A stretch of 64,000 bases of DNA from Sphaerisporangium perillae (GTDB taxonomy: Bacteria; Actinomycetota; Actinomycetes; Streptosporangiales; Streptosporangiaceae), in NCBI RefSeq assembly GCF_023276435.1, contig NZ_JALLPO010000007.1:124001-188000 (forward strand), written 5' to 3'. This document shows positions 32,952-49,641 of this stretch, one piece after another (positions within the stretch are counted from its first letter, which is position 1; each line of letters starts with the position of its first letter). A model generated the notes under the pieces. The model worked only from the letters and a program-made list of their open reading frames with translations, did not search any database and had not been told where the DNA came from. The position numbers were made by a program, and so were the translations under genes.

Positions 32952-33500
32952 TTACTGTGGACCGGTCCCAACCGGTGCCGTGCGCGCCCGCCAGGGGCGG
33001 GTCACGAGGGCCCCTAGCAGGGCTCCAGCGGTGTTCAGCAGGACGTCGTCGACCGAGGACACCCGGCCGAGGCGCAGGCCGTACTGCAGCACCTCCACCG
33101 TGACCGAGAGCGAGGCGGCGATCAGGGCGACCCGCCAGAGGGAGGCCATGCGCGCGGACCGGACCGGGAGCAGGGCGCCGAGCGCGGCGAAGACCAGCAG
33201 ATTCCCTCCCACCTGAGCGAACGCCGCCCCAGGTGGGCCGCCGGCCAGCTCCGCCAGGTCACGCAGGGGGACGAGGCTGACGCCCGAGGCGCTTCCCGGC
33301 GTGAGGATCATCCACAGCCACGGAAGCGTCCCCGCGGCGATGAAGACGTCCGCGTACGCCGTGCGGGCGGCATGGGCGCGGCCACGGCCGGCCCGCCACG
33401 CGGCCAGCAGGTGCGCGAGGGCCACGGCGACGGGCAGCAACAACAATGTGGCTAAGACGACATGTCCCCAGAGGTGCCATTCAAGCCGCATAGCGGACAT
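32952..33500 (-). CDS. VanZ-like membrane protein
   Basis: 182 aa with four hydrophobic segments: residues 10-32 (HVVLATLLLLPVAVALAHLLA), 48-65, 98-115 (GGNLLVFAALGALLPV) and 125-175. The NLLVFAALGALLPV and SVTVEVLQYGLRLGRVSSVDDVLLNTAGALLG stretches are VanZ family hallmarks (acidic Glu in helix 3 and the Asp-Asp-x2-x-Asn motif in helix 4). VanZ proteins can give low-level teicoplanin resistance, but most homologues have no known role. Alternative start at ATG 33491. Confidence 0.82.
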   Translation of the reverse strand: MSAMRLEWHLWGHVVLATLLLLPVAVALAHLLAAWRAGRGRAHAARTAYADVFIAAGTLPWLWMILTPGSASGVSLVPLRDLAELAGGPPGAAFAQVGGNLLVFAALGALLPVRSARMASLWRVALIAASLSVTVEVLQYGLRLGRVSSVDDVLLNTAGALLGALVTRPWRARTAPVGTGPQ

Positions 33501-33566
33501 CTTTCCGCATGGCGGGCCGGTGCCGGTGAGTGATCGGCGGCCCGGTCGGCGACCCTCGCCGACGTA

Positions 33567-33611
33567 TTGACAGGTGCCTCACCTGGACCGCAATCTGTTG
33601 CGCATAGCGAG
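33567..33611 (+). promoter_or_regulatory. Promoter and weak IclR-type site of the Rieske operon
   Basis: TTGACA at 33567-33572 and CAATCT at 33591-33596 (18-base spacer) form a likely promoter. GTTGCG-CATAG-CGAG (33598-33611) keeps the TGCG-N5-CG pattern shared with three other sites of this cluster but has changed last bases; it overlaps the predicted transcription start. Confidence 0.45.
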
Positions 33612-33647
33612 TCCCGTTCCGCCATCACCAACTGAGGGGTATTCGCG

Positions 33648-34007
33648 GTGATTCCCGCCTGTCCCCTCGCGGCACTGCCGCGGGGCGAGGCCCACCGGCT
33701 CGACATCGATCCGCCCGTCGCCGTCTTCCACACCGAGGACGGCGAGATCTACGCCATCGACGACACCTGCACCCACCAGGACGCCTCGCTGTCCGACGGA
33801 TGGCTGGAAGGCTGCCAGATCGAGTGCCCGCTCCACTCCAGCAGGTTCGACCTGCGGACCGGTGAGGTGGACAGTCCGCCGGCCAAGCTCCCCGTGCGCA
33901 CCCACGGCGTCGTGGTGGAGGACGGCATGATCTACGTCGTGCCGTCCGGCGCGCCCCCCAACCTCCCGCCGGGCGTGACGGCGGGGCGACCGAGGAGTGA
34001 CTCGTGA
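33648..34007 (+). CDS. Rieske [2Fe-2S] ferredoxin
   Basis: 119 aa electron-transfer protein. Cluster ligands are Cys41 and His43 (CTHQDASLSDG) and Cys60 and His63 (CPLHSSRFDLRTG), the Rieske CxH...CxxH pattern as in dioxygenase ferredoxins. GTG 33648 behind GAGGGG. Its stop overlaps the oxygenase start (GTGA), so it is the dedicated partner. Gamma-proteobacterial betaine demethylase (GbcAB) uses a flavin-ferredoxin reductase instead; none is encoded here, so a shared reductase elsewhere must recharge it. Confidence 0.9.
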   Translation: MIPACPLAALPRGEAHRLDIDPPVAVFHTEDGEIYAIDDTCTHQDASLSDGWLEGCQIECPLHSSRFDLRTGEVDSPPAKLPVRTHGVVVEDGMIYVVPSGAPPNLPPGVTAGRPRSDS

Positions 34008-35116
34008 CGTCCAGCCTGCTCGCCACCCTTTCCGGCCACCTCTACACCGACGAGGACGTCTTCGCCCTCGAACAGCGGCAGATCTTCGAGTCGATGTGGT
34101 TCTGCGTGGCCAGGGCCGACGATCTGGCCGGCCCGGGCGCGTTCCGCACCGTCCAGGTCGGGCGCGAGAGCGTCATCGTGAGCCGGGCCAAGGACGGCGC
34201 GACCCGCGCCTTCCTGAACGTCTGCCGCCACCGCGGCGCCCGCCTGTGCACGGAGGAGTCCGGCCAGGTGCGGCGGGCCTTCCAGTGCGCATACCACGCC
34301 TGGACCTACGACCTGGACGGCAAGCTGATCGCGGCGCCGAACCTCACCAAGATGCCCGACATCGACCGGGTGGAGCACGGCCTGGTCAAGGTGCACGTGC
34401 GCGAGTGGATCGGGTACGTCTGGGTGTGCCTGGCCGACGAGCCCCCCTCCTTCGAGGAGGACGTGCTCGGCGCGGTCGTGACCCGGCTCGGCGACCTGGC
34501 CTCGATCGAGAACTACGGCATCGAGGACCTGAAGGTCGGCCGCAGGATCGTCTACGACGTGAAGGCCAACTGGAAGCTGATCGTCGAGAACTTCATGGAG
34601 TGCTACCACTGCGCGACGATCCACCCCGAGCTGACCGAGGTGCTGCCGGAGTTCGCCGACGGGTACGCCGCCCAGTACTTCGTCGGGCACGGCGCCGCCT
34701 TCGGCAGCGGCATCCAGGGGTTCACGGTCGACGGCTCGCCGGGGGTCGACCGCATCCCGACGGTCGCCGAGGAGCAGGACCGGCGCTACTACGCGATCAC
34801 CATCAGGCCGCAGGTCTTCGTCAACCTCGTGCCCGACCACGCCATCGTCCACCGGATGTTCCCGCTGGCGGCCGACCGCACGATCGTGGAGTGCGACTGG
34901 CTGTTCCTGCCGGAGGTCGTGGAGAGCGGCAGGGACATCGGCCCGTCCGTGGAGCTGTTCCACAAGGTCAACGTGCAGGACTTCGACGCCTGCGAGCGCT
35001 GCCAGCCGGCGATGTCCTCCCGGGCGTACGCCCGCGGGGGCGTGCTCGTGCCCAGCGAGCACCACATCGCGGGCTTCCACGACTGGGTCCTCGAGCGGCT
35101 CGGCCTGCCCCGCTGA
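34004..35116 (+). CDS. Rieske oxygenase alpha subunit, candidate glycine betaine demethylase
   Basis: 370 aa ring-hydroxylase-type catalytic subunit. Rieske cluster: Cys74/His76 (CRHRGARLC) and Cys95/His98 (CAYHAWTYD). Mononuclear iron site begins with His202 and His207 (ECYHCATIHPEL) plus a later Asp. The closest functional class is GbcA/stachydrine-type demethylases that remove N-methyl groups from quaternary amines; the neighbouring choline dehydrogenase, betaine importer and dimethylglycine oxidase support conversion of glycine betaine to dimethylglycine with release of formaldehyde. Substrate is inferred from context, not proven. Confidence 0.82.
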   Translation: MTSSLLATLSGHLYTDEDVFALEQRQIFESMWFCVARADDLAGPGAFRTVQVGRESVIVSRAKDGATRAFLNVCRHRGARLCTEESGQVRRAFQCAYHAWTYDLDGKLIAAPNLTKMPDIDRVEHGLVKVHVREWIGYVWVCLADEPPSFEEDVLGAVVTRLGDLASIENYGIEDLKVGRRIVYDVKANWKLIVENFMECYHCATIHPELTEVLPEFADGYAAQYFVGHGAAFGSGIQGFTVDGSPGVDRIPTVAEEQDRRYYAITIRPQVFVNLVPDHAIVHRMFPLAADRTIVECDWLFLPEVVESGRDIGPSVELFHKVNVQDFDACERCQPAMSSRAYARGGVLVPSEHHIAGFHDWVLERLGLPR

Positions 35117-35167
35117 CGCCGGCGCGTGACCGCCTTCCCGGGGTGGTCCGCCTGCTCGTCAGCGAGC

Positions 35168-35938
35168 TCAGCCGGAGTAGCCGAGGCGGTGGCTGATGTC
35201 GGCCGCTCCGCCGATCAGGACGGGGGCGAGCCGGTGCATGCGCTCCGCGCTGAACCGGTAGGCGGGCCCGGAGGCGCTGACGGCCGCCACCACCTCGCCC
35301 TCGTAGGAGCGGATGGCGGCGGCCATGGCGTTGAGCCCGATCTCGTACTCCTCCAGCGTCACGGCGTACCCGCGTTCCTTGGCCTCGTCGAGCTGGGGCG
35401 CCAGCTCGGCGGCCGAGGTGATGGTGGCGGGGGTGTAGCGGTCGAGGCCGGCGGTCGACAGCAGCCGGTCGCGATGGCGGTCGTCGAGGTGGGCGAGCAG
35501 GACCTTGCCGCTGGAGGTCGCGTGGAGCGGGGTGAGCTGCCCGACCCAGTTGTACGCCGTGACCGCCGACGGGCCGCGCACCTGGTCGAGGTTGACCGCG
35601 TAGTGGGAACGCACGACGGCGATGTTGACGGTCTCGCCGATCTCCTCGGCGAGGCGGCGGCAGACCGGGCGTCCCTGCTGGATGAGGTCGAGGCGGGAGG
35701 CGACGCCGCCGGCGAGCCGGATGACGCCGAAGCTGAGGCGGTACTTGCCGCGGTCCTCCGCCTGCTCGACGAGGTTCCTGGCTTCGAGGGCGCCGAGGAG
35801 CCGGAAGGCCGTCGACTTGTGGACACCGATCTCGGCCGCGATCTCGCTGACGCCGGCCTCGCCGCGCTGGGAGAGGATCTCCAGCACGCTGATGGCCCGG
35901 TCGACCGACTGCACGCCGGCCGATGATTCGTTGCCCAT
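35168..35938 (-). CDS. IclR-family regulator of the choline/betaine cluster
   Basis: 256 aa. N-terminal winged HTH (VDRAISVLEILSQRGEAGVSEIAAEIGVHKSTAFRLLGAL) and C-terminal IclR effector domain (about 80-250) with LTPLHATSSGKVLLAHL and YAVTLEEYEIGLNAMAAAI. ATG 35938 starts the conserved region; the frame continues to 36061 but runs into the operator. It is divergent from the GMC dehydrogenase and inside the catabolic island, and the TGCG-N5-CGCA palindrome sits between them, so it most likely controls the whole cluster and itself, sensing choline, betaine or a breakdown product. Confidence 0.88.
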   Translation of the reverse strand: MGNESSAGVQSVDRAISVLEILSQRGEAGVSEIAAEIGVHKSTAFRLLGALEARNLVEQAEDRGKYRLSFGVIRLAGGVASRLDLIQQGRPVCRRLAEEIGETVNIAVVRSHYAVNLDQVRGPSAVTAYNWVGQLTPLHATSSGKVLLAHLDDRHRDRLLSTAGLDRYTPATITSAAELAPQLDEAKERGYAVTLEEYEIGLNAMAAAIRSYEGEVVAAVSASGPAYRFSAERMHRLAPVLIGGAADISHRLGYSG

Positions 35939-35995
35939 AGCTCGGGACTGTAAGGCGTCGGCGTACCGGCGTCCATTTCTTCCGGTGCCCCCCGA

Positions 35996-36018
35996 ATGGT
36001 TGCGGATGCCGCAACCAT
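35996..36018. promoter_or_regulatory. IclR operator, perfect 10-bp palindrome
   Basis: ATGGTTGCGG-ATG-CCGCAACCAT: arms of ten bases match exactly around a 3-base centre; core is TGCG-GATGC-CGCA. Placed 58 bases upstream of the IclR start and 73 bases before the GMC gene, in the divergent promoter region. Confidence 0.75.
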
Positions 36019-36090
36019 GTGCGTCAATCGCTACCAAGCAATGCACGTCATTTCTCCGCATATGCGAGATGAGAGCGGGACGGGGCTGGT

Positions 36091-37737
36091 ATGTACGACT
36101 TCGTCATCGTCGGTGGTGGATCGGCCGGATGCGCCCTCGCGAACCGGCTGTCCGCCGACCCTTCCGTCCGGGTGCTGGTGCTGGAGGCGGGCCGTTCGGA
36201 CTATCCGTGGGACGTCTTCATCCACATGCCCGCCGCGCTGATGTTCCCGATCGGCAGCCGGTTCTACGACTGGAAGTACGAGTCCGAGCCCGAGCCCCAC
36301 ATGAACGGCCGCCGCATCTACCACGCGCGCGGCAAGGTGCTCGGCGGGTCCAGCAGCATCAACGGCATGATCTTCCAGCGCGGCAACCCGCTGGACTACG
36401 AGCGCTGGGCCGCCGACCCCGGCATGGAGACCTGGGACTACGCGCACTGCCTGCCGTACTTCAAGCGCATGGAGAACTGCACGGCCGACCCGGGGACCGC
36501 CTTCCGCGGCCACGACGGGCCCTTGGTCCTGGAACGCGGGCCGGCGCAGAGCCCGCTGTTCACCGCCTTCTTCGAGGCCGTGCGGCAGGCGGGGTACCCG
36601 CTGACCGACGACGTGAACGGCTACCGCCAGGAGGGCTTCGCGCCCTTCGACCGCAACATCCGCCGCGGACGCCGCCTGTCGGCCGCCCGGGCGTACCTGC
36701 ATCCCGTGAAGCGGCGCCCGAACCTCGAGGTCAGGACGCGGGCGCTGGTGACGCGGATCCTGTTCGAGGGCAGGCGCGCGGTCGGGGTGGAGTACGACGG
36801 CCGGACCGTGCGGGCGGGCGAGGTGATCCTGTGCGGCGGCGCGATCAACTCGCCGCAGCTCCTCCAGCTCTCCGGCGTGGGCAACGCGGCCGAGCTGTCC
36901 GCCCTGGGCGTCGAGCCCGTCCACGACCTGCCCGGCGTGGGGGAGAACCTCCAGGACCACCTGGAGGTCTACGTGCAGTACGGCTGCAAGCAGCCCGTGT
37001 CGATGCAGCCGGCGATGAAGTGGCGCAACCGCCCGTGGGTCGGGGCACGGTGGCTGTTCCTGCGCAAGGGGCCGGGGGCGACCAACCACTTCGAGGCGGG
37101 CGGCTTCGTCCGGGGCAACGACGAGGTGGCCTATCCGAACCTGATGTTCCACTTCCTGCCGGTCGCGGTCCGCTACGACGGCTCGGCCCCGGCCGGTGGG
37201 CACGGCTACCAGGTGCACATCGGCCCGATGTACTCCGACGCCCGGGGTTCGGTGAAGATCCGCAGCACCGACCCGCGGGAGCGTCCGGCGCTGCGCTTCA
37301 ACTACCTGTCCACCGACCAGGACCGGCGGGAGTGGGTGGAGGCCGTCCGGGTGGCGCGGGGCATCCTCAACCAGCCCGCCATGGACGGCTTCAACGCGGG
37401 CGAGCTGTCGCCGGGGCCGTCGGTCGAGAGCGACCAGGAGATCCTGGACTGGGTCGCGCGTGACGCCGAGACCGCCCTGCACCCGTCGTGCACGGCTCGC
37501 ATGGGCGTCGGCGAGGGCGCCGTGGTCGATCCGCTCACCATGCGGGTGCACGGACTGGACGGGCTGCGCGTGGTGGACGCCTCGGTCATGCCGTACGTCA
37601 CCAACGGCAACATCTACGCGCCGGTCATGATGGTCGCGGAGAAGGCCGCCGACCTCATCCTCGGCGACACGCCGCTCCCGCCGGAGCCGGTGGAGTTCTA
37701 CCGGCATCCCGGCCGCGCCTCCGCGCCGTCCCGCTGA
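36091..37737 (+). CDS. betA: GMC-type choline dehydrogenase
   Basis: 548 aa FAD oxidoreductase. FAD-binding [13 protein letters not shown] at residues 8-20, GMC signature 1 in [15 protein letters not shown] (about 82-96), signature 2 [15 protein letters not shown], and the catalytic His region [10 protein letters not shown] with second His/Asn in [21 protein letters not shown]. Length and motifs match BetA, which oxidises choline to betaine aldehyde and can carry on to glycine betaine; no separate betaine aldehyde dehydrogenase is in the window, so one enzyme may do both steps or BetB lies elsewhere. Other alcohols cannot be excluded. Confidence 0.85.
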
Positions 37738-38047
37738 TCCCGGGCTCGGCGACCGATCAGCGCCGGAAATGACCAGATATAGGGCTGGAAACACCGCTTC
37801 TAGGTATGTCCGACGGATGCCACGCGGTTTTCATCACCTCTATGGTGGTACGGCAGTGCGCGTTTCGGTCGCGAAGGGAAACGCGGCAAGCCTTGACGGG
37901 GCTGACCAGAGGGTCGATTCTGTTCCTCGTTAAGCATTCTGATGCGTCATACGCAACCAGATCGCGAACGGAGAGGTCCGTGGCAGAGTTCTGCCACGGT
38001 GGCCGCCGGAGGTGACCGGCCTCCATCCCTCGAACCGCGAGGTGACC
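37738..38047. other. Intergenic region with the ABC-operon operator
   Basis: Apart from the regulatory site at 37941-37958 this 310-base stretch has no gene; it is relatively AT-rich between 37780 and 37980. Confidence 0.4.
37941..37958 (+). promoter_or_regulatory. IclR-type site upstream of the betaine ABC operon
   Basis: GATGCG-TCATA-CGCAACC: TGCG (37943-37946), five bases, CGCA (37952-37955), with flanks matching the palindrome at 35996. Lies 90 bases before the ATPase gene. Confidence 0.6.
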
Positions 38048-39112
38048 ATGACCGCGACGTCGCCGGCCGAGCTTCCGAAGGCCCTTACCGAGGCCGAGGA
38101 GTCGGTGACCCTCGACGTGCGCGGCCTGTGGAAGGTGTTCGGGCCCCGGGCCGACCGGGTGGCCGGCACTCCGCTCGCCGAGCTGTCACGCGCCGAGCTC
38201 AGGGAGCGCACCGGCTGCGTCGCCGCCGTGCGCGACGTCTCCTTCGCCGTACGGCGCGGCGAGGTCTTCGTCGTCATGGGCCTCTCCGGTTCCGGCAAGT
38301 CGACGCTCGTGCGCTGCCTCACCCGGCTGGTCGAGCCGACCGCCGGCGAGGTGCTGCTGGACGGCGTGGACATCCGCAAGGCCGGCGACAAGCAGCTGCG
38401 CGAGCTGCGCCGCCACCGGTTCGCGATGGTCTTCCAGCACTTCGGCCTGCTCCCGCACCGGCGGGTGCTGGACAACATCGCCTACGGCCTTGAGATCCAG
38501 GGGCAGAAGAAGGACTCCCGATACGCGCGGGCCGGCGAGATGCTCGACCTCGTCGGGCTCACCGGGTACGGCGAGTCCTACCCCGACCAGCTCTCCGGCG
38601 GCATGCAGCAGCGGGTGGGCCTCGCCCGCGCCCTGGCCGTCGACCCCGAGGTGCTGTTCTTCGACGAGCCGTTCTCGGCCCTGGACCCGCTGATCCGCAG
38701 GGACATGCAGAACGAGGTCATCCGGCTGCACCATGAGGTCGGCAAGACGATGATCTTCATCACGCACGACCTGAGCGAGGCGCTGAAGCTCGGCGACCGC
38801 ATCCTGGTCATGCGCGACGGCGAGATCGTCCAGATCGGCACCCCGGACGAGGTGGTGGGCGCGCCCGCCGACGACTACGTGCGGGAGTTCGTGCGCGACG
38901 TGTCCCGCTCGCAGGTGCTGACCCTGCGCTGGATCATGCGGCCGCCCGGCGACGGCGACGCGCTGGACGGCCCCGAGCTCGGTCCCGACGTCGTCATCAA
39001 GGACGCCGTGCGCACCGTCCTGCACGCGGACCGCCCGGTGCGGGTCGTGGCGGACGGCGAGCTGCTCGGCGTGGTTAGCAGCGCCGAGATCCTCGAGGTG
39101 ATCGCGGATTGA
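38048..39112 (+). CDS. proV: Glycine betaine/proline ABC transporter ATP-binding protein
   Basis: 354 aa. Residues 1-75 are a leader with the ProV-type insertion before Walker A; Walker [10 protein letters not shown] (about 78-86), Q-loop in [11 protein letters not shown], signature [15 protein letters not shown], Walker [14 protein letters not shown] and switch His in [11 protein letters not shown] follow. The last 70 residues are a single CBS-like segment (about 300-354), shorter than the paired CBS of OpuAA osmosensors. ATG 38048 follows GAGGTGACC. Here the importer feeds catabolism rather than, or as well as, osmoprotection. Confidence 0.9.
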
Positions 39113-39164
39113 GCGGCGACGGGATCGCCCGCGCGGCGGGTGGACGTGGTGAGGTGAGGCCGCG

Positions 39165-41147
39165 ATGACGGCGGCCGTGGCGGCCCGCCGGCCGGTGTGG
39201 TCGCGCCCGTACCTGCTCGTGGGCATCCTGGCCGCCTGGATCGCGCTGTGGATCGCCTTCCGGGGCCAGGCCACCCTCCCGCTGGACGGCGCCGAGCTGA
39301 CCCCGCTGCACGCACGGATCGGCGAGGCCGCCGACGTCGTGGACAACAACCGCGACTCCAACCCGATCTTCCTGTACTTCTTCAACTACGTGCGGCTCTT
39401 CATCGACGAGTTCGTCACGTTCGTCCAGGCGCTGATCAGCCGGCCGTCGTTCGGCCGTCCCGTCCCGGTGGTCGGCTGGCTCGGCGTGGTGGGACTCGCC
39501 GCCGCCGTCGCCCTGCTGTACGGGAACCTCAGGGTCGCGCTGCTGACCGTGGCCGGATTCGTGTCCTTCGGGCTGCTCGGCCTGTGGGAGGAGAGCATGG
39601 ACACGCTGGCGCTGACGCTGGCCGCCGTCCTGCTCTCGCTCGCCGCCGGCATCCCGCTCGGCATCTGGGCCGGGCTGAACGACCGGTTCGACCGCCTGGT
39701 CACCCCGGTGCTCGACTTCATGCAGACCATGCCGACGTTCGTGTACCTGGCGCCGCTCACGCTGGTCTTCCTGATCGGGCCCGCCAGCGCCACCGTGGCC
39801 ACGATGATCTACGCCATCCCGCCGGCGATCCGCATCACCTCGCACGCGATCAGGCAGGTGCCCAAGGAGACCGTGGAGGCGGGCGCCTCACTCGGGTCGA
39901 CGCCCTGGCAGCTGCTCGCGAAGGTACGGCTCCCGCTGGCCAAGCGGACCATCGTCGTCGGCGTCAACCAGACGATCATGGCCGCGCTGTCCATGGTGAC
40001 GATCGCCGCGCTCATCGACGCGCCCGGGCTCGGCAAGACCGTGCTCAAGGCCCTGGAGACCCTCGACGTCGGCACGTCCTTCAACGCCGGCCTGGCCATC
40101 GTCATCATGGCGATCGTGCTCGACCGGGTGACCTCGGCGGCCGGACGCCGCGTCGAGGACGCCCGCCGCGCCGGACGCGCCCACCGGCCGCTCCGGCGCC
40201 GGATCCAGGTGGGCGCCGTCCTCGCGGTCGCCGCCGTGCTCGTCTACCTGTCGCACGTCTACGTGTGGGCCGCGGAGTTCCCGGGCGAGGCCGACGTGGG
40301 CTCCTTCGTCCGCAAGGGCGCCGACGCGGCGAGCCAGTGGGCGCAGACGAACCTGTTCGCCACCACCAACGGGCTGAAGAACCTCATCACCTACGGGCTG
40401 CTCAACCCGTTCGAGGCCGTGCTGACCGACTCGCCCTGGTGGCTGGTGCTCGCCGTGGTCACCGCGACCGCGCTGGTGGTCGCCGGCGTGCGGGTCGCGG
40501 CCGTGTGCGCGGTGTGCGTGGCCCTGCTGGTCGCGCTCGGGCTGTGGCAGGACAGCATGGTGACGCTGGCCGCGACGCTCGTCGCCACGGTGCTGGTGAT
40601 GGCGCTGGGCATCGTGATCGGGGTCTGGATCGGCCGGGACGACCGCGCCGACCGGGTGATCCGCCCGGTGCTGGACGCCGGCCAGACCATGCCCGCGTTC
40701 GTGTACCTGGTGCCCATCCTCGGCCTGTTCGGCGCCACCCGGTTCACCGCGATCATCGCGGCGGTCGTCTACGCCGCCCCCGTGGCCATCAAGCTCGTCG
40801 CGGACGGCATCAGGGGCGTGTCCACCGCGGCAGTGGAGGCCGCCACCGCCGCCGGGTCGAGCACGTGGCAGATCATCTCCAGGGTGCAGGTGCCGATGGC
40901 GCGCGGCGCGGTCACCCTCGCCGCGGGCCAGGGGCTGTGCTACGTGCTGGCCATGGTCGTGGTCGGCGGGCTGGTCGGCGCGGGAGCGCTGGGATACGAC
41001 GTGGTGTCGGGGTTCTCCCAGCTCCAGCTGCGCGGCAAGGGCTTGGCCGCCGGCCTCGCGATCGTGGTCCTCGGCACCATGCTGGCCGCGATCACCAAGG
41101 CCCTACAGCGTCGGGGAGTTCGGAAATCGCCCGTCACGGGTGTGTAA
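39165..41147 (+). CDS. proW: Glycine betaine/choline ABC permease, tandem-fused
   Basis: 660 aa, twice the length of ProW. Two homologous permease halves: residues about 145-330 (LALTLAAVLLSLAAGIPLGIWAG ... EAGASLGSTPWQLLAKVRLP, the EAA loop) and about 465-650 (MVTLAATLVATVLVMALGIVIGVWIG ... AAGSSTWQIISRVQVP). Each has an N-terminal extension of extra helices, the first beginning at residue 10-30. Both ATPase-contacting EAA loops are intact, so one polypeptide can form the whole membrane part. ATG 39165 behind GAGGTGAGG. 38 bases before the binding-protein gene. Confidence 0.9.
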   Translation: MTAAVAARRPVWSRPYLLVGILAAWIALWIAFRGQATLPLDGAELTPLHARIGEAADVVDNNRDSNPIFLYFFNYVRLFIDEFVTFVQALISRPSFGRPVPVVGWLGVVGLAAAVALLYGNLRVALLTVAGFVSFGLLGLWEESMDTLALTLAAVLLSLAAGIPLGIWAGLNDRFDRLVTPVLDFMQTMPTFVYLAPLTLVFLIGPASATVATMIYAIPPAIRITSHAIRQVPKETVEAGASLGSTPWQLLAKVRLPLAKRTIVVGVNQTIMAALSMVTIAALIDAPGLGKTVLKALETLDVGTSFNAGLAIVIMAIVLDRVTSAAGRRVEDARRAGRAHRPLRRRIQVGAVLAVAAVLVYLSHVYVWAAEFPGEADVGSFVRKGADAASQWAQTNLFATTNGLKNLITYGLLNPFEAVLTDSPWWLVLAVVTATALVVAGVRVAAVCAVCVALLVALGLWQDSMVTLAATLVATVLVMALGIVIGVWIGRDDRADRVIRPVLDAGQTMPAFVYLVPILGLFGATRFTAIIAAVVYAAPVAIKLVADGIRGVSTAAVEAATAAGSSTWQIISRVQVPMARGAVTLAAGQGLCYVLAMVVVGGLVGAGALGYDVVSGFSQLQLRGKGLAAGLAIVVLGTMLAAITKALQRRGVRKSPVTGV

Positions 41148-41148
41148 C

Positions 41149-41165
41149 GGCCGCCTCCGGCGGCC
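41149..41165 (+). terminator. Short hairpin between permease and binding-protein genes
   Basis: GGCCGCC-TCC-GGCGGCC, 7-bp stem without a T-run, inside the operon. It could adjust relative expression or mRNA stability of the binding-protein gene; it is not a full terminator. Confidence 0.35.
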
Positions 41166-41184
41166 TTCGATCAGGAGGACTTTG

Positions 41185-42171
41185 GTGAGAGTTTCGAGGA
41201 TCGCGCGGCCGAGGACGGCCGTACTCGTGGCGGCCGTCGGCCTCCTCGCCTCAGCGTGCGCGGGTGCGAAGGTGGGAGAGAGCCCGTCCGCCTCTGGAAC
41301 GGCCGATCCGGCGAAGAAGGCGTGCGGCGCCGTCAACCTCGCGATCAACCCCTGGGTCGGATACGAGGCGAACGCCGCGGTGATCGCGTACGTGGCCGAG
41401 AAGGAGCTCGGCTGCCAGGTCACGAAGAAGGACCTCAAGGAGGAGGTGGCCTGGCAGGGATTCGCCACCGGCGAGGTCGACGCGATCGTGGAGAACTGGG
41501 GCCACGACGACCTCAAGAAGAAGTACATCGAGCAGCAGCAGGTCGCCGTCGAGACCGGCTCGACCGGCAACAAAGGCGTCATCGGCTGGTACGTGCCGCC
41601 GTGGATGGCCGAGAAGTACCCCGACATCACCGACTGGAAGAACCTCGACAAGTACGCCGACCTGTTCAAGAGCTCCGAGTCCGGCGGCAAGGGGCAGCTG
41701 CTCGACGGCGACCCCTCGTTCGTCACCAACGACGCGGCCCTGGTCAAGAACCTGAAGCTGAACTACAAGGTGGTGTACGCCGGCAGCGAGGCGGCGCTGA
41801 TCACCGGGTTCCGGCAGGCCGAGGCCCAGAAGAAGCCGATGATCGGCTACTTCTACGAGCCGCAGTGGTTCCTCGCGGAGGTCAAGCTCGTCAAGGTGAA
41901 TTTGCCCGCCTACACCGAGGGGTGCGACGCGGACGCGGCCAAGGTGGCCTGCGACTACCCGCCGTACGAGCTCGACAAGATCGTGAGCAAGAAGTTCGCC
42001 GACTCCGGCAGCCCGGCCTACCAGCTGGTGAAGAACTTCACCTGGACCAACGACGACCAGAACCTGGTGGCCAAGTACATCTCCGAGGACAAGATGTCGG
42101 CCGAGGATGCCGCCAAGAAGTGGGTCGAGGCCAACCCCGACAAGGTGAAGGCCTGGCTGCCCACGGGCTGA
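41185..42171 (+). CDS. proX: Glycine betaine/choline-binding lipoprotein
   Basis: 328 aa OpuAC-family substrate-binding protein. Signal peptide with lipobox LASAC (Cys about residue 26) gives a lipid-anchored protein. Mature domain starts CGAVNLAINPWVGYEANAAVI and contains TrpVal-Gly-Tyr ligand-cage type residues (INPWVGYE, ENWGHDD, IGWYVPPWM, YEPQWFL) typical of quaternary-ammonium binding by aromatic boxes. GTG 41185 follows AGGAGGAC. The aromatic cage favours betaine, choline or similar compounds; exact preference unknown. Confidence 0.92.
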   Translation: MRVSRIARPRTAVLVAAVGLLASACAGAKVGESPSASGTADPAKKACGAVNLAINPWVGYEANAAVIAYVAEKELGCQVTKKDLKEEVAWQGFATGEVDAIVENWGHDDLKKKYIEQQQVAVETGSTGNKGVIGWYVPPWMAEKYPDITDWKNLDKYADLFKSSESGGKGQLLDGDPSFVTNDAALVKNLKLNYKVVYAGSEAALITGFRQAEAQKKPMIGYFYEPQWFLAEVKLVKVNLPAYTEGCDADAAKVACDYPPYELDKIVSKKFADSGSPAYQLVKNFTWTNDDQNLVAKYISEDKMSAEDAAKKWVEANPDKVKAWLPTG

Positions 42172-42208
42172 CCTGCTCTTGACACCCCCCGGGCGGCCGG
42201 TCACGCTT

Positions 42209-42223
42209 GTTGCGGAAGGCGCA
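42209..42223 (+). promoter_or_regulatory. IclR-type site upstream of dimethylglycine oxidase
   Basis: GTTGCG-GAAGG-CGCA: TGCG (42211-42214), five bases, CGCA (42220-42223). A further CGCAAC at 42239-42244 pairs with GTTGCG at longer distance. Located 34 bases before the ATG. Confidence 0.6.
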
Positions 42224-42256
42224 TCATTGTTCATCATGCGCAACGGAGGTGGCGGT

Positions 42257-44710
42257 ATGACGGGCCCCCGGGTCGTCGTCATCGGAGCGGGCGTGGTGGG
42301 CGCGGCACTCGCCGAGGAGCTCTCCGCCCGAGGCTGGGACGACATCACCGTGGTCGACCAGGGCACGGTCCCGGCGGCGGGCGGCTCGTCCTCCCACGCG
42401 CCCGGCCTGGTCTTCCAGACCAACCCCTCCAAGACCATGACGGAGCTGGCGCGCTACACCGTCGAGAAGCTCCTGGCGCTCGGCTGCTTCCTCCAGGTCG
42501 GCGGTCTGGAGGTCGCCACGACCCCCGAACGGCTCGCCGAGCTGCACAGGCGGCACGGCTGGGCCACCGCCTGGGGCGTCGAGGCGCACCTGCTCACCAC
42601 CGAGGAGTGCCTCCGGCGCCACTCGCTGCTCGACCCCGACCGGGTGCTCGGCGGCCTGTACGTGCCGACCGACGGCATCGCCAAGGCCGTGCGCGCCGTC
42701 GAGGCGCAGCTCCGGCTCGCCCGCGAGCGCGGCGTACGCGTCCTCGACCGGCACGAGGTGCTGGACATCCGGGTCGAGGACGACCACGTGACCGGCGTCC
42801 TCACCGACCAGGGCGAGATCCCCGCCGACGTCGTCGTCTGCTGCGCCGGCATCTGGGGCCCGAAGGTCGCGGGCATGGTCGGCATGGCGCTGCCCCTTAC
42901 CCCCCTCGCCCACCAGCTCGCCTGGACCGGCCCGGTGCCTGCTCTGAGCGGCCAGGCCGAGGAGGCGCCCACGGACGGCGGCAGGCCACAGGAGGCGACC
43001 CGCCCGATCCTGCGCCACCAGGACGCCGACCTGTACTACCGGGAGCGGTACGACCGGCTGGCCGTCGGCTATTACGGCCACCGACCGATGCCCGTGCGCC
43101 CCGAGGCCATCGCGTCCGTCGACGACGCTGAGGTGATGCCGTCGGTGACGCCGTTCACGCCCGGCGACTTCGCCGACGCCTGGACCGAGACGCAATCGCT
43201 GCTGCCCTCGACGCGCGACACCAAGATCGAAGAGGGCATCAACGGGCTGTTCTCCTTCACCACCGACAACATGCCCCTGCTCGGCGAGTCCACCGAGGTC
43301 AAGGGGTTCTGGGTGGCCGAGGCCGTCTGGGTCACCCACTCGGCGGGCGTGGCGCGAGCCCTGGCCGAGTGGCTGGTCGACGGGCACTGCTCGTCGTTCG
43401 ACCTGCACGAGTGCGACGTCAACCGCTTCGAGCCGCACCAGCTCGCCCCCGAGTACGTCCTGACCCGCGACTGCCAGAACTTCGTCGAGGTCTACGACAT
43501 CATCCACCCGCTCCAGCCGCCGGAGAACCTGCGCCCGCTACGGGTGAGCCCCTTCCACGCGCGGCAGCGCGAGCTCGGCGCCTTGTTCCTCGAGGCGTCT
43601 GGATGGGAGCGCCCCCAGTGGTACGGCGCGAACGCCGCCCTGGCCGAGGGCGGGGGCATCCCCGTGCCCGGCGACTGGGCGGCGCGCTACTGGTCGCCGA
43701 TCGTGGGCGCCGAGGCACGGGCGTCCCGGGAGGGCGTCGCCCTGTACGACATGACCGCGCTCAAGCGGCTGGAGGTCGCCGGGCCCGGCGCGGCGGCCTT
43801 CCTGGACCGGATGTCCACTGGCGCCGTCGACAAGCCGGTCGGATCGGTGACCTACTGCCTGCTGCTCGACCACGACGGCGGCATCCGCAGCGACATCACG
43901 GTCGCCCGGCTCGGCCGCGAGCTGTTCCAGGTCGGCGCCAACGGCAACCTCGACCTCGACTGGCTCGCCCGCCACCGTCCTGCCGACGGGTCGGTGTCCA
44001 TCAGGGACATCACCCCCGGCACATGCTGCGTCGGGATCTGGGGCCCGCGCGCACGCGACGTGGTGGCGCCGCTCACCGAGGGCGACTTCTCCGCCGAGGG
44101 CTTCCGCTACTTCCGTGCCAAGCGGGCGTACATCGGGTCGGTGCCGGTCACCGCGCTACGCCTGTCCTACATCGGCGAGCTGGGCTGGGAGCTCTACACG
44201 ACCGCCGACATGGGCGTGAAGCTGTGGGACACGCTCTGGGAGGCCGGACGGCCGCACGGCATCATCGCGGGCGGGCGCGGCGCGTTCAACAGCCTGCGCC
44301 TGGAAAAGGGCTACCGCTCCTTCGGCGCCGACATGACCTACGAGCACGATCCGTTCGAGGCCGGCCTGGGGTTCGCCGTCAAGATGGACAAGGGCGACTT
44401 CATCGGCAGGTCCGCCTTGGAGGAGCGCCGCGCCTCGGTCGCCCGCCGCCTGGCCTGCCTGACGATCGACGACCCCTCCGGCGTGGTGATGGGCAAGGAG
44501 CCCGTCTACGACGGCGACACCTGCGTGGGGTACGTCACCAGCGCGGCGTACGGGTACACCATCGGCAAGGCCATCGCCTACGCCTGGCTGCCCCGCCCGC
44601 TGTCGGAGCCCGGGCGGCAGGTCCACATCGGTTACTTCGGCAGGCGGATCCCGGCCGTCGTGGCGGAGGAACCGCTCTTCGACCCGGCCATGAAGCGGCT
44701 GCGCGCGTGA
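42257..44710 (+). CDS. dmgO: Dimethylglycine oxidase (FAD and folate dependent)
   Basis: 817 aa bifunctional flavoenzyme like Arthrobacter DMGO. FAD domain: [13 protein letters not shown] (residues 10-22) and the flavin-attachment region [11 protein letters not shown] with His47, the residue that carries covalent FAD in DMGO. The C-terminal half (about 430-815) is a GcvT-like folate-binding domain ([62 protein letters not shown]) that captures the methylene group on tetrahydrofolate. Converts dimethylglycine to sarcosine. ATG 42257 behind GGAGGTGG; first gene of the dmgO-soxBDAG operon. Confidence 0.87.
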
Positions 44711-44774: not shown

Positions 44775-46001
44775 ATGACCGGACGCGAGCGGGCCAGGCC
44801 CGGGGACGGCACCGCGCTGTGGGACAGCCCCGAGCCGGCCGCCTCCTACGACGTCGTGATCGTCGGCGGCGGCGGGCACGGCATCGCCACCGCCTACTAC
44901 CTGGCGAAGAACCACGGCATCACCAACGTGGCCGTCCTGGAGAAGGGCTGGCTGGCCGGCGGCAACATGGCCCGCAACACGACGATCATCCGCTCCAACT
45001 ACCTGTGGGACCAGAGCGCCGGCATCTACGAGCACGCGTTGAAGCTGTGGGAAGGGCTGGAGGACGACCTCGGCTACGAGGTGCTGTTCAGCCAGCGCGG
45101 GGTGCTCAACCTCGCCCACAGCCTGCAGGACGTGCGCGACAGCGTGCGCCGCGTCAACGCCAACCGGCTCAACGGCGTCGACGCCGAATGGCTCGGCCCC
45201 GAGCGGGTCAAGGAGGTCTGCCCGATCGTCGACGTCAGACCCGACGCGCGCTACCCGGTGCTCGGCGCCACCTACCAGCCGCGCGCGGGCATCGCCAAGC
45301 ACGACCACGTCGCCTGGGGGTACGCCAGGGCCGCCTCCGCGATGGGCGTCCACTTCATCGAGCACTGCGAGGTCACCGGCATCGAGGTGACCGACGGCCG
45401 GGTGCGGGCCGTACAGACCACACGCGGGCGCATCGCGGCGGGGCGCGTGGCACTGTCCGCGGCCGGGCACTCCTCGGTCGTGGCCGGCATGGCCGGGCTG
45501 CGGCTGCCGGTGCAGAGCCACACCCTCCAGGCGCTGGTCTCCGAACTGCTCGAACCGGTCCACCCGACGGTCGTCATGTCCAACGCGGTCCACGTCTACG
45601 TCAGCCAGGCGCACAAGGGCGAGCTGGTCATGGGCGCCGGCATTGACGCCGCCAACTCCTACCGCAGGCGGGGAGCCTTCCACATCATCGAACGGCAGAT
45701 GGCCGCGGCGCTGGAGCTGTTCCCGATCTTCGCCAGGGCGCACGTCCTGCGCACCTGGGGCGGGGTGGTCGACGTCACTCCTGACGCCTCGCCGATCGTC
45801 GGACTCACCCCGGTCGGCGACCTGTACGTCAACTGCGGCTGGGGAACGGGCGGGTTCAAGGCGACGCCCGGCGTCGGCTGGTGCTACGCGCACACGATCG
45901 CCACCGGGGAGCCGCACCCGCTCAACGCGCCCTTCACCCTCGAACGATTCACCACCGGCGCGCTCGTGGACGAGCACGGCGCCGCCGCCGTGGCGCACTG
46001 A
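44775..46001 (+). CDS. soxB: Sarcosine oxidase beta subunit
   Basis: 408 aa FAD/FMN subunit of heterotetrameric sarcosine oxidase. [19 protein letters not shown] (about 26-44) binds FAD; the His that carries covalent FMN is in this subunit in corynebacterial enzymes, and [15 protein letters not shown] and [14 protein letters not shown] are conserved. It oxidises sarcosine to glycine with transfer of the methyl group to folate via SoxA. ATG 44775, 62 bases after dmgO; soxD follows after 13 bases. Confidence 0.9.
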
Positions 46002-46014
46002 AGGAGCGCGAGCG

Positions 46015-46356
46015 ATGTTGCTGATCCCCTGCCCGTGGTGCGGGCCGCGCGACGAGGCCGAGTTCGGGTACGGCGGGCAGGCCGGCGTCGCCTACCCCCG
46101 CGACCCCGGCGCGCTCACCGACGAGGAGTGGGCACGCTACCTCTTCTTCCGCGACAACCCCGAGGGCCCGTTCGAGGAACGGTGGAACCACTCGGCCGGC
46201 TGCCGCCGCTGGTTCAACCTGACCAGGAACACCGCCACCAACGAGATCACCCCCATATCCCCGTCCGGGGACGCCTCCCCGCCCGGGAACGTCGCCACCG
46301 GCGAGGTCGGCACCGCGAGCGCGTCCTGGGACGCCGCCACCGGAGGCCCGCGATGA
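46015..46356 (+). CDS. soxD: Sarcosine oxidase delta subunit
   Basis: 113 aa zinc-binding subunit. CPWCGPRDEAEFGYGG supplies Cys6 and Cys9; His59 and Cys63 (RWNHSAGCRRWF) complete the Zn site. TDEEWARYLFFRDNPEGPFEERW is the standard SoxD core. The last 35 residues are a poorly conserved Ser/Thr/Pro tail. ATG 46015 follows AAGGAGCG; the stop overlaps soxA by ATGA. Confidence 0.93.
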   Translation: MLLIPCPWCGPRDEAEFGYGGQAGVAYPRDPGALTDEEWARYLFFRDNPEGPFEERWNHSAGCRRWFNLTRNTATNEITPISPSGDASPPGNVATGEVGTASASWDAATGGPR

Positions 46357-49142
46357 CGCGGCGGCGTGCCGGGCACGAGGGTCAGGTGCTGCGGTTCACG
46401 TTCGACGGCCGCGCCTACGAGGGCCGCCGAGGTGACACCCTCGCCTCGGCGCTGCTGGCGGCAGGCGTGCGCCGGGTGGCCACCAGCGTCACGCTCGGCC
46501 GCCCGCGCGGCATCTTCGGCGCGTGGACCGAGGAGCCGAACGCCGTCGTCCAGATCGAACGGCCGTTCCCCGAGCCCATGGTCCAGGCGACCACGATCCC
46601 GCTGTACGACGGCCTGGTCGCATCCAGCCTGTCCGGGCAGGGAAGGCTGTCGCCCGGCCCGGACCCGGCGCGCTACGACGCCACGCACGCGCACTGCGAC
46701 GTGCTCGTGGTGGGTGCCGGACCGGCGGGGCTGGCGGCGGCGCGGGCCGCCGCGCGCACCGGAGCCCGGGTCGTCCTCGCCGACGACCGCCCCGAGCCCG
46801 GAGGCACCCTGCCGGACACCGCCGAGACGGTGGAGGGCCGGCCCGGCGCCGAGTGGGCGCTCGCCGTCGCGGCCGAGCTGCGAGCCCTGCCCGACGTGCG
46901 TGTCCTGTCCCGGACGAGCGTCATCGGGTACTACGACCACAACTACCTCGTCGCCGTCGAGCGCCGGGGCGAGGACGCCGTGACGCGGGAGCGGGTCTGG
47001 CGGATCCGCGCCCGCAGGGTCGTCCTGGCGACCGGGGCGCACGAGCGGCCCATCGTGTTCAGCGGCAACGACCTCCCCGGTGTCATGCTGGCCTCCGCCG
47101 CGCGCGCGTACGCCAACCGGTACGGCGTGCCGGCCGGCCGCCGGGCGGTGGTCTTCACCACCGGCATGGACGACACCGCCTACGACGCGGCCCGCGACCT
47201 CGCCGAGGCGGGCGTCGAGATCGTGGACATCGCCGACGCCCGCGAGGGCCGGCTGGTCACCGCCGCGATCGGCGACGGCGACGAAGGCCTGCGCACCGTC
47301 GTGATCGGCGAGCGCGGCGAGGGCCTGGGCGCCATGACGGGATCACGCGAGGTCGAGGCCGACCTGCTGCTCGTCGCCGGCGGGTGGAATCCCGTGGTCC
47401 ACCTGTTCGGCCAGGCCGGAGGGGAGCTGCGCTACGACGAGCGGCTCGGCGCCTTCGTCCCGGGGGATGCCGCGCGAGCCGTCCAGGCGGGCCGGAACGT
47501 GGTGGTGGCCGGGGCGGCGCGAGGGGCGACCACCCTCGCCGAATGCCTCGCCGACGGCGAAACCGCCGCCGCCTCCACTCCGCCGACCTCGCTCGCCACT
47601 CCGCCGTCTCCGTCCGGCGGGTGGGGGGAGCACGTGTGGCTGGTGCCCGCCGACGACGAGACCCACCACTTCGTGGACCTCCAGCGGGACGTGACCGTGG
47701 CCGACCTGCGGCGGGCCACCGGCGCGGGGCTGCGCTCCGTCGAGCACGTCAAGCGTTACACCACGGCGGGCACCGCACACGACCAGGGCAAGACCTCCGG
47801 CACGCTCACCAGCGCGATCGTCGCCCAGGTGCTGGGAACCGGGATCGCCGGCCTCGGCACCACCACCTTCCGCGCGCCCTACGTCCCGGTGTCCTTCGCG
47901 ACCCTCGCCGGACGCGACCGGGGCGCCCTGCACGATCCCGTGCGCGTCACCGCGATGCACGACTGGCACGCCGAGCACGGCGCGCTGTTCGAGAACGTCG
48001 GGCAGTGGAAGAGACCCTGGTACTACCCGGGGCCGGGGGAGGACATGGAGGCCGCGGTCCTGCGCGAGTGCCGCGCCGTCCGCGAGGCCACAGGCGCCAT
48101 GGACGCCTCCACCCTCGGGAAGATCGACGTTCAGGGCCCGGACGCGGCCGAGCTGCTCGACCGCCTCTACACCAACCTGATGAGCAGCCTGAAGGTCGGC
48201 GCCATCCGGTACGGCGTCATGTGCCGCGCCGACGGCATGGTGTTCGACGACGGCACCGTCATCCGGCTGGCGCCCGACCGCTTCCTCGTCACCACGACCA
48301 CGGGCAACGCGGCCGCCGTGCTCGACTGGATGGAGGAGTGGCTGCAGACCGAATGGCCCGGCCTGCGGGTCCGATGCACCTCGGTGACCGAGCAGTGGGC
48401 GACGGTCGCCCTGGCCGGACCGGGTTCACGCGCCGTGCTCGCGAGCCTCGCCCCCGACCTGGCGGTGGACGCCGAGAGCTTCCCGTTCATGACCTGGCGC
48501 GACGCCGAGGTGGCGGGCATCGAGGCGCGGGTCTGCCGGATCAGCTTCTCCGGCGAGCTGGCCTACGAGATCAACGTCAGCTGGTGGCACGGGCTCGCGC
48601 TGTGGAAGGCCGTCCAGGCGACCGGCGCGGTCACCCCGTACGGGACCGAGACCATGCACGTGCTGCGCGCCGAGAAGGGATACCCCATCATCGGCCAGGA
48701 CACCGACGGCACGGTCACGCCTGCGGACCTCGGCATGGGCTGGGTCGTCTCCAAGAGCAAGCCCGACTTCGTCGGCAAGCGGTCCTTCGCCCGCGCCGAC
48801 ACCGCCAGGCCCGACCGCCGGCACCTGGTGGGCCTGCTCCCCGAGGACCCGGACGCGCTGCTGCCGGAAGGCGCCCAGCTCGTCGCCTGCGAACGGCTCC
48901 CGGAGCCTCCCGTGCCCATGCTCGGCCACGTGACCTCCTCCTACCGCAGCGCGGCCCTCGGCCGTACGTTCGCCCTCGCGCTCGTGAGCGGCGGCAGGGA
49001 CCGCGTCGGGGAGCGCCTGCACGCCTACACGGGCGAGACCCTGATCCCGGTGACGGTCACCCACCACGTCCTCTACGACCCAGAAGGAACCCGCCGCGAT
49101 GGCCGACCCGACACCTCCGAGGGAGCCCGCCACGATGGTTGA
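46353..49142 (+). CDS. soxA: Sarcosine oxidase alpha subunit
   Basis: 929 aa. N-terminal ferredoxin-fold region (FTFDGRAYEGRRGDTLASALLAAG) without the iron-sulfur cysteines, as in SoxA; NAD(P)-binding flavoprotein domain with VLVVGAGPAGLAAARAAA (about 113-130) and ATGAHERPIVFSGNDLPGVML; C-terminal folate-binding GcvT-like domain (about 560-929) with TLGKIDVQGPDAAELLDRLY and ISFSGELAYEINV. Together with SoxB/D/G it turns sarcosine into glycine and 5,10-methylene-THF. Start ATG 46353 overlaps soxD; upstream open frame is antisense-like shadow. Confidence 0.93.
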   Translation: MTRRRAGHEGQVLRFTFDGRAYEGRRGDTLASALLAAGVRRVATSVTLGRPRGIFGAWTEEPNAVVQIERPFPEPMVQATTIPLYDGLVASSLSGQGRLSPGPDPARYDATHAHCDVLVVGAGPAGLAAARAAARTGARVVLADDRPEPGGTLPDTAETVEGRPGAEWALAVAAELRALPDVRVLSRTSVIGYYDHNYLVAVERRGEDAVTRERVWRIRARRVVLATGAHERPIVFSGNDLPGVMLASAARAYANRYGVPAGRRAVVFTTGMDDTAYDAARDLAEAGVEIVDIADAREGRLVTAAIGDGDEGLRTVVIGERGEGLGAMTGSREVEADLLLVAGGWNPVVHLFGQAGGELRYDERLGAFVPGDAARAVQAGRNVVVAGAARGATTLAECLADGETAAASTPPTSLATPPSPSGGWGEHVWLVPADDETHHFVDLQRDVTVADLRRATGAGLRSVEHVKRYTTAGTAHDQGKTSGTLTSAIVAQVLGTGIAGLGTTTFRAPYVPVSFATLAGRDRGALHDPVRVTAMHDWHAEHGALFENVGQWKRPWYYPGPGEDMEAAVLRECRAVREATGAMDASTLGKIDVQGPDAAELLDRLYTNLMSSLKVGAIRYGVMCRADGMVFDDGTVIRLAPDRFLVTTTTGNAAAVLDWMEEWLQTEWPGLRVRCTSVTEQWATVALAGPGSRAVLASLAPDLAVDAESFPFMTWRDAEVAGIEARVCRISFSGELAYEINVSWWHGLALWKAVQATGAVTPYGTETMHVLRAEKGYPIIGQDTDGTVTPADLGMGWVVSKSKPDFVGKRSFARADTARPDRRHLVGLLPEDPDALLPEGAQLVACERLPEPPVPMLGHVTSSYRSAALGRTFALALVSGGRDRVGERLHAYTGETLIPVTVTHHVLYDPEGTRRDGRPDTSEGARHDG

Positions 49143-49641
49143 GCGGATCAGCCCGCTGGCGGGGTTCGCGGGGGTTTCTGACACACGATTGCGCGTGCGG
49201 GAGATCCCCTTCCTGCGGCAGACGAACCTCCGGGCCGATCCCGGCAAGGTGCCACCGTCGCTCGGGTTGCGGCTGCCGATGGAACCGGGCACCTGGCTGC
49301 GCTCCGGCGGGGCCGACGTGCTGTGGCTGGGCCCCGACGAGTGGCTGGTCATCGGCGATGTGGACCTTCCGCGCTCCGAGGACGTCGCGGTGACCGACGT
49401 GTCGGCGCAGCGGACCACGATCCTGGTGGCCGGGCCGGGCGCACGTGACCTGCTCGCACATGGATGCGCCATCGACCTGCACCCATCGGTGTTCGGCCCC
49501 GGCCGCTGCGCGCAGACCACGCTGGCGAGGGCGCAGGTCGTGCTGGTCGCGGGTGAGGACGAGGAGTTCCGGGTGCTGGTCCGAGCCTCCTTCGCCCGCT
49601 ACCTCGCCGACTGGATCACCGACGCGGCCGTCGACTACTGA
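49099..49641 (+). CDS. soxG: Sarcosine oxidase gamma subunit
   Basis: 180 aa from ATG 49099, 168 from ATG 49135. Core SoxG: ISPLAGFAGV, VREIPFLRQTNLRADP, VLWLGPDEWLVIG, TDVSAQRTTILVAGPGARDLLAHG and CAQTTLARAQVVLV. Both starts overlap the soxA 3' end and each has its own SD in a duplicated segment (AAGGAACCCGCCGCG and GAGGGAGCCCGCCACG), so either may be used. Closes the operon. Confidence 0.92.
   Translation: MADPTPPREPATMVERISPLAGFAGVSDTRLRVREIPFLRQTNLRADPGKVPPSLGLRLPMEPGTWLRSGGADVLWLGPDEWLVIGDVDLPRSEDVAVTDVSAQRTTILVAGPGARDLLAHGCAIDLHPSVFGPGRCAQTTLARAQVVLVAGEDEEFRVLVRASFARYLADWITDAAVDY

Follow-up and report, generated by a model that had tools for sequence, protein, structure and literature searches.

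The choline/betaine locus and its double operators

The window, a 64-kb stretch within the 9.3-Mb genome of Sphaerisporangium perillae, contains a gene cluster (the island) whose content fits the route choline to betaine to dimethylglycine to sarcosine to glycine, together with iclR, a gene for a predicted regulator of the IclR family. A preliminary description of this DNA had picked out single palindromes with the core TGCG-N5-CGCA in the promoter regions of the cluster. The operator is larger than this: its unit is a tandem pair of palindromes, and each of the island boxes is accompanied by a second one at a distance of 19 bp (box starts 33597 and 33616, 35999 and 36018, 37922 and 37941, 42209 and 42228). 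The four double operators are listed here, with the matches of each box to the twelve fixed positions of GTTGCG-N5-CGCAAC.

33597..33632, + strand, Rieske operon double operator: boxes 33597-33613 (9 of 12) and 33616-33632 (9 of 12)
35999..36034, + strand, iclR/gmc double operator: boxes 35999-36015 (12 of 12) and 36018-36034 (9 of 12)
37922..37957, + strand, importer double operator: boxes 37922-37938 (7 of 12) and 37941-37957 (11 of 12)
42209..42244, + strand, dmgO-sox double operator: boxes 42209-42225 (11 of 12) and 42228-42244 (8 of 12)

The genes of the cluster are as follows.

33648..34007, + strand, rfd: small Rieske ferredoxin-like protein (Pfam Rieske)
34004..35116, + strand, rox: Rieske oxygenase, closest NCBIfam relative the glycine betaine monooxygenase GbcA, under cut-off
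35168..35938, - strand, iclR: predicted regulator, 256 aa from a conserved ATG (Pfam IclR_C and HTH_IclR)
36091..37737, + strand, gmc: choline dehydrogenase BetA (TIGR01810 betA)
38048..39112 (start may be 38012), + strand, abcA: ProV-type betaine/choline ABC transporter ATPase (TIGR01186 proV)
39165..41147, + strand, abcP: permease with two transport domains (Pfam BPD_transp_1, two stretches)
41185..42171, + strand, abcS: OpuAC substrate-binding protein (Pfam OpuAC)
42257..44710, + strand, dmgO: dimethylglycine oxidase-like, with DAO, FAO_M and GCV_T domains (Pfam)
44775..49641, + strand, soxB-soxA-soxG: sarcosine oxidase subunits (soxB 44775-46001, soxA within 46035-49142, soxG 49099-49641)

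The gmc product passes the TIGR01810 betA model with 827.8 bits (cut-off 732.1), and the abcA product passes TIGR01186 proV with 365.9 bits (cut-off 326.6). For rox, GbcA is still the best family, at 227.7 bits on model NF058607 against a cut-off of 670; its putative role as a betaine demethylase is suggested by gene context. The name of dmgO follows its domain make-up, no equivalog model being passed, and the sox subunits were assigned from TIGR01373 (soxB), SO_alpha_A3 and GCV_T (soxA) and SoxG (soxG).

Single boxes are a poor guide in this DNA. The preliminary description correctly placed a 23-bp perfect palindrome at 35996-36018, cores at 36001, 37943 and 42211 and a weak copy at 33599, and where it expected two or three cores per 64 kb by chance, shuffles gave a mean of 3.07. 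Its remark that all the cores it noted fall in promoters of the cluster has to be set beside a further core at 19378, which lies outside the cluster; the window thus holds four, and at least four were found in 40 of 100 shuffles. Of the scans that it proposed, the one for GTTGCG-N5-CGCAAC in the window with at most three mismatches yields 30 places against 54.3 in shuffles, fewer than chance would give. The genome scan with at most one mismatch finds 13 places; three are in the island, and the other ten are elsewhere. These ten all lie inside long stop-free frames, a feature that serves as a heuristic for coding in GC-rich DNA and is not proof of it, and at neither 19-bp position does any of them have a partner scoring more than 6 of 12. 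Single-box counts in the window and the genome are not beyond chance. With counts at or below the chance level and 10 of the 13 best boxes outside the island, single-box statistics were rejected as evidence for a regulon.

The island sites are far above chance because of their conserved 19-bp partner boxes, which are absent from the preliminary description. To measure conservation we used 60 loci around IclR matches, including the window's own, drawn from 200 genomes of the family, and located orthologues by tblastn; this gave 116 orthologous promoter regions (38 for gmc, 36 for dmgO, 29 for rfd and 13 for abcA). Boxes with at least 9 of 12 matches form 87 pairs within 60 bp in these promoters, and their starts are exactly 19 bp apart in 76, the runner-up distance occurring five times. 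When the threshold is lowered to 8 of 12, 87 pairs at 19 bp are found with the real motif and no more than 14 with any of 59 permuted half-sites, whose largest count at any spacing is 26. These pair counts are not independent because the sequences are related. A pair with at least 17 of 24 matches is present in 29 of 29 rfd promoters, 32 of 36 dmgO promoters, 29 of 38 gmc promoters and 5 of 13 abcA promoters. The pair is therefore conserved across orthologous clusters, where the preliminary description had named a lack of such conservation as a reason to abandon its proposal.

The dmgO promoters without a pair are those of L037, L039, L067 and L071 (4 of 36). In L037 and L039, both from Sphaerisporangium, dmgO starts only ~50 and ~30 bp past abcS; at so short a distance, transcription from the importer promoter may extend into it. 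Within the double operator, the outer half-sites carry 11.3 and 9.0 bits of information and the inner ones 5.3 and 7.9, the conservation of the outer half-sites being partly owed to consensus-based site picking. In a GC-rich genome such as this one, the tandem pair is a strong criterion, a lone IclR palindrome a weak one.

Genome-wide rank and promoter geometry

We collected 70 distinct operators with at least 18 of 24 matches. A first profile, R1, omitted six of them, from loci L080-L087, and included two rows (locus L059) of G197, a genome of the same genus as the window; the second, R2, was rebuilt without those two rows; it is gapless and comprises 62 double operators, all of them from other genera. 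When R2 was run on the whole genome, six rows were returned at E <= 10: the four island promoters came first, followed by one background place (E 7.4). The match at dmgO is the best in the genome (E 0.002, found in both orientations), and those at the Rieske operon (33595-33624) and at iclR/gmc (35998-36031) have E-values of 0.0099 and 0.14. R1 leads with the identical four places. The genome scan scored 150 of 1721 first-look candidates, so that weak sites could be missed; its E-values are rough.

Three of the four double operators stand in a fixed relation to conserved promoter elements, which are listed with the likely -10 of iclR.

33567..33572, + strand, Rieske operon -35, TTGACA (conserved element)
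33591..33596, + strand, Rieske operon -10, CAATCT, abutting box 1 (xAxxxT conserved)
37893..37898, + strand, importer operon -35, TTGACG (conserved element)
37916..37921, + strand, importer operon -10, GATTCT, abutting box 1 (xAxxxT conserved)
42179..42184, + strand, dmgO-sox -35, TTGACA (conserved element)
42202..42207, + strand, dmgO-sox -10, CACGCT, 1 bp ahead of box 1 (xAxxxT conserved)
35947..35952, - strand, likely iclR -10, TACAGT, with TGGACG (35970-35975, 4 of 6 to TTGACA) 17 nt before it

Among the orthologues, TTGACA or TTGACG lies 29-30 nt upstream of box 1 in 28 of 29 rfd promoters (5 of 6 or better), 31 of 36 dmgO promoters and 5 of 13 abcA promoters; the five abcA promoters, all from Sphaerisporangium loci, are those that have a pair. 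An xAxxxT hexamer ends 0-1 bp before box 1 in every rfd, dmgO and abcA promoter that has the -35. Since the operator directly follows the -10, the expected transcription start falls inside box 1. Because the operator lies over the expected start at the Rieske, importer and dmgO promoters, repression is predicted there, and this geometry suggests that the regulator of the Rieske, importer and dmgO-sox promoters acts as a repressor. The promoter assignment rests on the conserved TTGACA/TTGACG and xAxxxT elements at fixed distances and not on a generic promoter scan.

The promoter of iclR itself is less uniform. TA[CG]AGT is present within 60 nt of the iclR start in 38 of 45 orthologues, and only 14 of these also have a -35 that matches at 4 or more of 6 positions. 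In 18 of 45, a box scoring 9 or more of 12 occurs within 40 nt of the iclR start, in several cases over the start codon; the window's best is 7 of 12. Because boxes lie close to or over the iclR start codon in relatives, autoregulation of iclR is suggested. In L075-L079 (Acrocarpospora-like), an extra single box of 11-12 of 12 lies over the iclR start codon, right after TACAGT or TAGAGT, and likely serves autoregulation.

The IclR protein and its co-occurrence with the operator

The iclR product belongs to the IclR family by both of its domains, which exceed the Pfam gathering scores (PF09339, 54.7 bits; PF01614, 147.4 bits). Its recognition helix, VHKSTAFRL, hardly varies among 81 sequences, 80 of which were fetched by six patterns, one of them from the helix region. 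The ligand pocket appears to depart from that of the glyoxylate sensors. Alignments to 2o99 and 1tf1 place S, S, T, S and S at the glyoxylate residues G160, A161, D212, S239 and S241 of E. coli IclR, so that by alignment three of the five oxygen-binding residues are changed and the protein would lack the glyoxylate site of IclR/AllR; the numbering was matched to Table 1 of PMC11323563 by residue type. W131, E196, E197 and E199 (numbered from the ATG at 35938) are invariant in the 81 sequences, and N130 is nearly or fully so. A methylated amine is proposed as the ligand.

We next compared the presence of the operator with that of iclR, counting iclR as present at a match of E <= 1e-70, which holds for 80 of the 200 family genomes. 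With R1 under the stricter filters and E <= 0.01, matches occur in 54 of the 200 genomes, namely in 52 of the 80 with iclR and in 2 of the 120 without it (G053 and G123); R1 was trained on loci inside the same genome set, so that the positive side of this count is partly circular and the negative side is not. Each of the other five genomes of the window's genus that carry iclR has a match at E <= 10 (best per genome 5e-7 to 0.05). None of the five same-genus genomes without iclR has a match at E <= 1, and these also have no dmgO match at E <= 1e-250. Of 22 genomes searched as iclR-free, 10 have some match at E <= 1 (best 0.026, in G003), no more than chance allows, and two of the 22 do carry an IclR (G003, 58% identical; G134, 50%).

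The dmgO promoters follow the same pattern. In genomes that keep a dmgO relative and a distant iclR, a pair of at least 17 lies upstream of dmgO in 8 of 11 sampled, the pair in one of these eight, G080, being at a different place from one following its -35. Among dmgO-keeping genomes without an iclR match at 1e-70, such a pair is found in one of nine, G044. This genome holds a partial IclR match, 63% identical across residues 6-156, and in G134 there is one of 50%, which leaves seven of the nine, and in these dmgO-keeping genomes without IclR at 1e-40 the pair is present in 0 of 7. One of the seven, G133 (L189), has a 16-point site 52 nt before dmgO; the site of G044 (L182), from the same genus, has the same position and more matches; this looks like a site decaying after loss of iclR, or else a gap in a 92%-complete genome. 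Phylogeny is a confounder in these comparisons, the dmgO of iclR-free genomes being more divergent (58-66%).

Some relatives carry a second IclR in the cluster (47-54% identical, with the helix VHRSTAFRL). In the following loci it lies between gmc and abcA and is 50-54% identical.

L036:11977-12750, second IclR
L047:7259-8032, second IclR
L057:12162-12935, second IclR
L069:7453-8211, second IclR
L074:6796-7527, second IclR

The second IclR could read the same operators in those relatives. A search of the window's genome with the second IclR of L036 found only the window IclR at E <= 1e-40. As a separate observation, two close copies of iclR occur in G197 (L040, L059): one accompanies the cluster, and the other stands apart from it, next to a divergent second IclR; this genome is 7% contaminated, and one of the copies may be foreign.

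Proposed repression, its rivals and the possible reach of the regulon

We favor the reading that the locus encodes a local IclR repressor of choline/betaine use that binds paired palindromes at four promoters and is released by a metabolite, and we give it a probability of about 0.82. According to this model, the IclR encoded at 35168-35938 would act as a dimer of dimers that binds two 17-bp palindromes at each of the four promoters, the operator having the consensus GTTGCG-N5-CGCAAC, box starts 19 bp apart and a total length of 36 bp. At the Rieske, importer and dmgO-sox promoters, where the operator begins 0-1 bp past the -10 and covers the start, the tetramer on the DNA would stand in the way of RNA polymerase. 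IclR would be released by a metabolite of the pathway, with a methylated amine such as betaine, dimethylglycine or choline as the most likely candidate, and through the iclR/gmc pair this signal would also reach gmc and, probably, iclR. The proposal in the preliminary description that one IclR protein coordinates the demethylase, the dehydrogenase, the importer and the dmgO-sox operon is supported by the shared double operator, its genome rank, its conservation and its co-occurrence with iclR; as far as sequence can tell, a single IclR regulon over the four promoters is well supported.

Several observations weigh against this reading. The importer site by itself is near background (R2 match 37930-37957, E 2.05), the abcA operator is confined to 5 Sphaerisporangium loci (5 of 13 abcA promoters), a pair scoring 17 or more of 24 is missing from 9 of 38 gmc promoters, and the weaker box of some island pairs is poor (7 and 8 of 12). 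The training sites were chosen with the consensus of the preliminary description, which makes their agreement with it partly circular. In the 200-genome count, some R1 matches sit away from the cluster, and 28 of the 80 iclR-bearing genomes have no match at E <= 0.01; 26 of these have an IclR only 52-63% identical, and the others, G172 and G182, lack such a match despite 87 and 91% identity and show cluster matches only in a laxer search (E 0.018-0.9). A generic sigma-70 scan of 33400-42400 yields no promoter, because the -10 hexamers are weak. Finally, the gmc/iclR pair does not have the -35/-10 geometry (0 of 29 promoters), so that one mechanism does not cover all four sites.

The last of these points also favors the view that the same IclR activates through the same double operators, either generally or only at gmc with repression elsewhere, as has been put forward for BhcR. 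No -10 abuts the operator at gmc, the operator ends 56 nt upstream of the gmc start in the window, and IclR proteins can activate, as BhcR does (PMC11323563). At rfd, dmgO and abcA, however, the operator follows the -10 and lies over the expected start, a poor position for an activator, and we consider activation unlikely, though it is the strongest of the competing explanations. It is less probable still that a different regulator reads the operators, with iclR a passenger or one of several readers. The second IclR of some relatives' clusters could read the same sites there, and G053 and G123 have an operator match without a close iclR, neither having an IclR at E <= 1e-40. Against this, the search of the window's genome with the second IclR returns only the window IclR at E <= 1e-40, a search that did not extend to other families, operator presence tracks iclR, and the best box lies in the upstream region of iclR itself. 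The single-core counts at chance level, the shortage of the longer box relative to shuffles and the 10 of 13 best genomic boxes outside the island would be expected if TGCG-N5-CGCA were simply common in GC-rich DNA and the island sites meaningless; the 19-bp pairing, its conservation, its fixed distance to the -35 and the top genome rank of the four island pairs make such an explanation hardly credible.

The predicted repressor would use an architecture that is already known from many other groups of IclR proteins (Suvorova and Gelfand 2021, PMC8222616). In the main text of that study, IclR tandem sites with 18-22 nt between centres are reported for 94 orthologous groups and ascribed to tetramer binding, for which the TtgV structure paper is cited. 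The close pairs fall within this range, with 76 of 87 at 19 bp, as do 4 of 4 island promoters. Like the sites of group 1 in the same text, where a GTT-11-AAC subgroup has the motif GTTYCRYW3RYGRAAC, the island boxes are tandem 17-bp palindromes that start with GTT and end with AAC. Unlike that consensus, which has Y at position 4, box 1 here has G in 62 of 62 rows, these rows having been chosen with a G consensus; box 2 is mixed at this position, with 48% G, 27% T and 24% C, and C is found in box 1 of the window's importer operator. The correlation of His27 with G/C at motif position 10, also given there, does not hold here: the window IclR has His at that position, whereas the boxes have T. 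Choline, betaine and sarcosine are not named in the main text of PMC8222616.

BhcR of Paracoccus denitrificans, a regulator of the beta-hydroxyaspartate cycle, is the best NCBIfam relative of the window IclR, which scores 195.5 bits on model NF045644 and falls short of the cut-off of 350; the target genes of the two differ. In PMC11323563, BhcR is grouped beside IclR and AllR; it activates in vivo even though its binding is weakened by glyoxylate. TtgV of Pseudomonas putida, whose structure on DNA is known (2XRO), has an IclR-family helix-turn-helix and matches the window IclR in sequence (3.6e-16), but it controls efflux transporters, whereas the predicted targets of the window IclR belong to amine catabolism.

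The task proposed here for an IclR protein, control of betaine catabolism, falls in the covered literature to GbdR in Pseudomonas aeruginosa. GbdR is an AraC-family activator and not an IclR protein. Within the literature searched (including PMC3141670 and PMC7434839, with most subscription papers outside it), we found no IclR regulator for the catabolism of choline, betaine, dimethylglycine or sarcosine. Switches of this type are familiar, but no description of this regulator of this pathway was found in those sources. Under the present model, this pathway, for whose control in Actinomycetes we found no account in that literature, would gain a regulator, an operator defined to exactly 36 bp and a short list of targets. 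It predicts regulon membership lineage by lineage and offers a candidate amine-responsive switch.

The operator also extends beyond the genera used for training. We searched with R1 the 26 of the 80 fetched IclR loci that lie outside those genera (Streptomyces, Actinophytocola, Pseudonocardia, Nocardia, Rhodococcus, Tsukamurella, Nocardioides, Micromonospora, Saccharopolyspora, Zafaria and one Pseudonocardiales; IclR 52-71% identical). A match at E <= 0.01 is present in 19 of the 26 loci, the operator recurring in Pseudonocardia, Rhodococcus, Nocardia, Nocardioides and Micromonospora, and absent at this threshold from L159, L160, L166, L171, L179, L180 and L181. Where rfd is recognisable, in 15 of these loci, the operator lies directly ahead of it in 12. 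In six Nocardioides/Micromonospora loci (L167, L169, L170, L172, L174 and L176), a double operator (E 0.001-0.013) precedes a PurU-like gene; the product downstream of the L167 operator (12974-13010) has Formyl_trans_N and ACT domains, and the same protein start is found in L169, L172, L174 and L176, the L170 protein not being among them. The window's genome has no profile match at its purU-like gene (contig C69). An operator at purU fits a pathway that releases one-carbon units. From these data one may tentatively propose, as an idea we hold somewhat less probable than even, that in many actinomycete orders this IclR serves as master repressor of choline-to-glycine catabolism, the role that GbdR has in Pseudomonas, that it reaches purU in some lineages and with it the disposal of one-carbon units made by demethylation, and that it senses a methylated amine through a remodelled pocket whose Asn-Trp pair, N130-W131, is invariant or nearly so, in place of the glyoxylate site.

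Next to the cluster, a VanZ-like gene at 32952-33500 (- strand) is divergent from the Rieske operon, and relatives of it lie nearby in some Sphaerisporangium loci (L036, L038 and L040).

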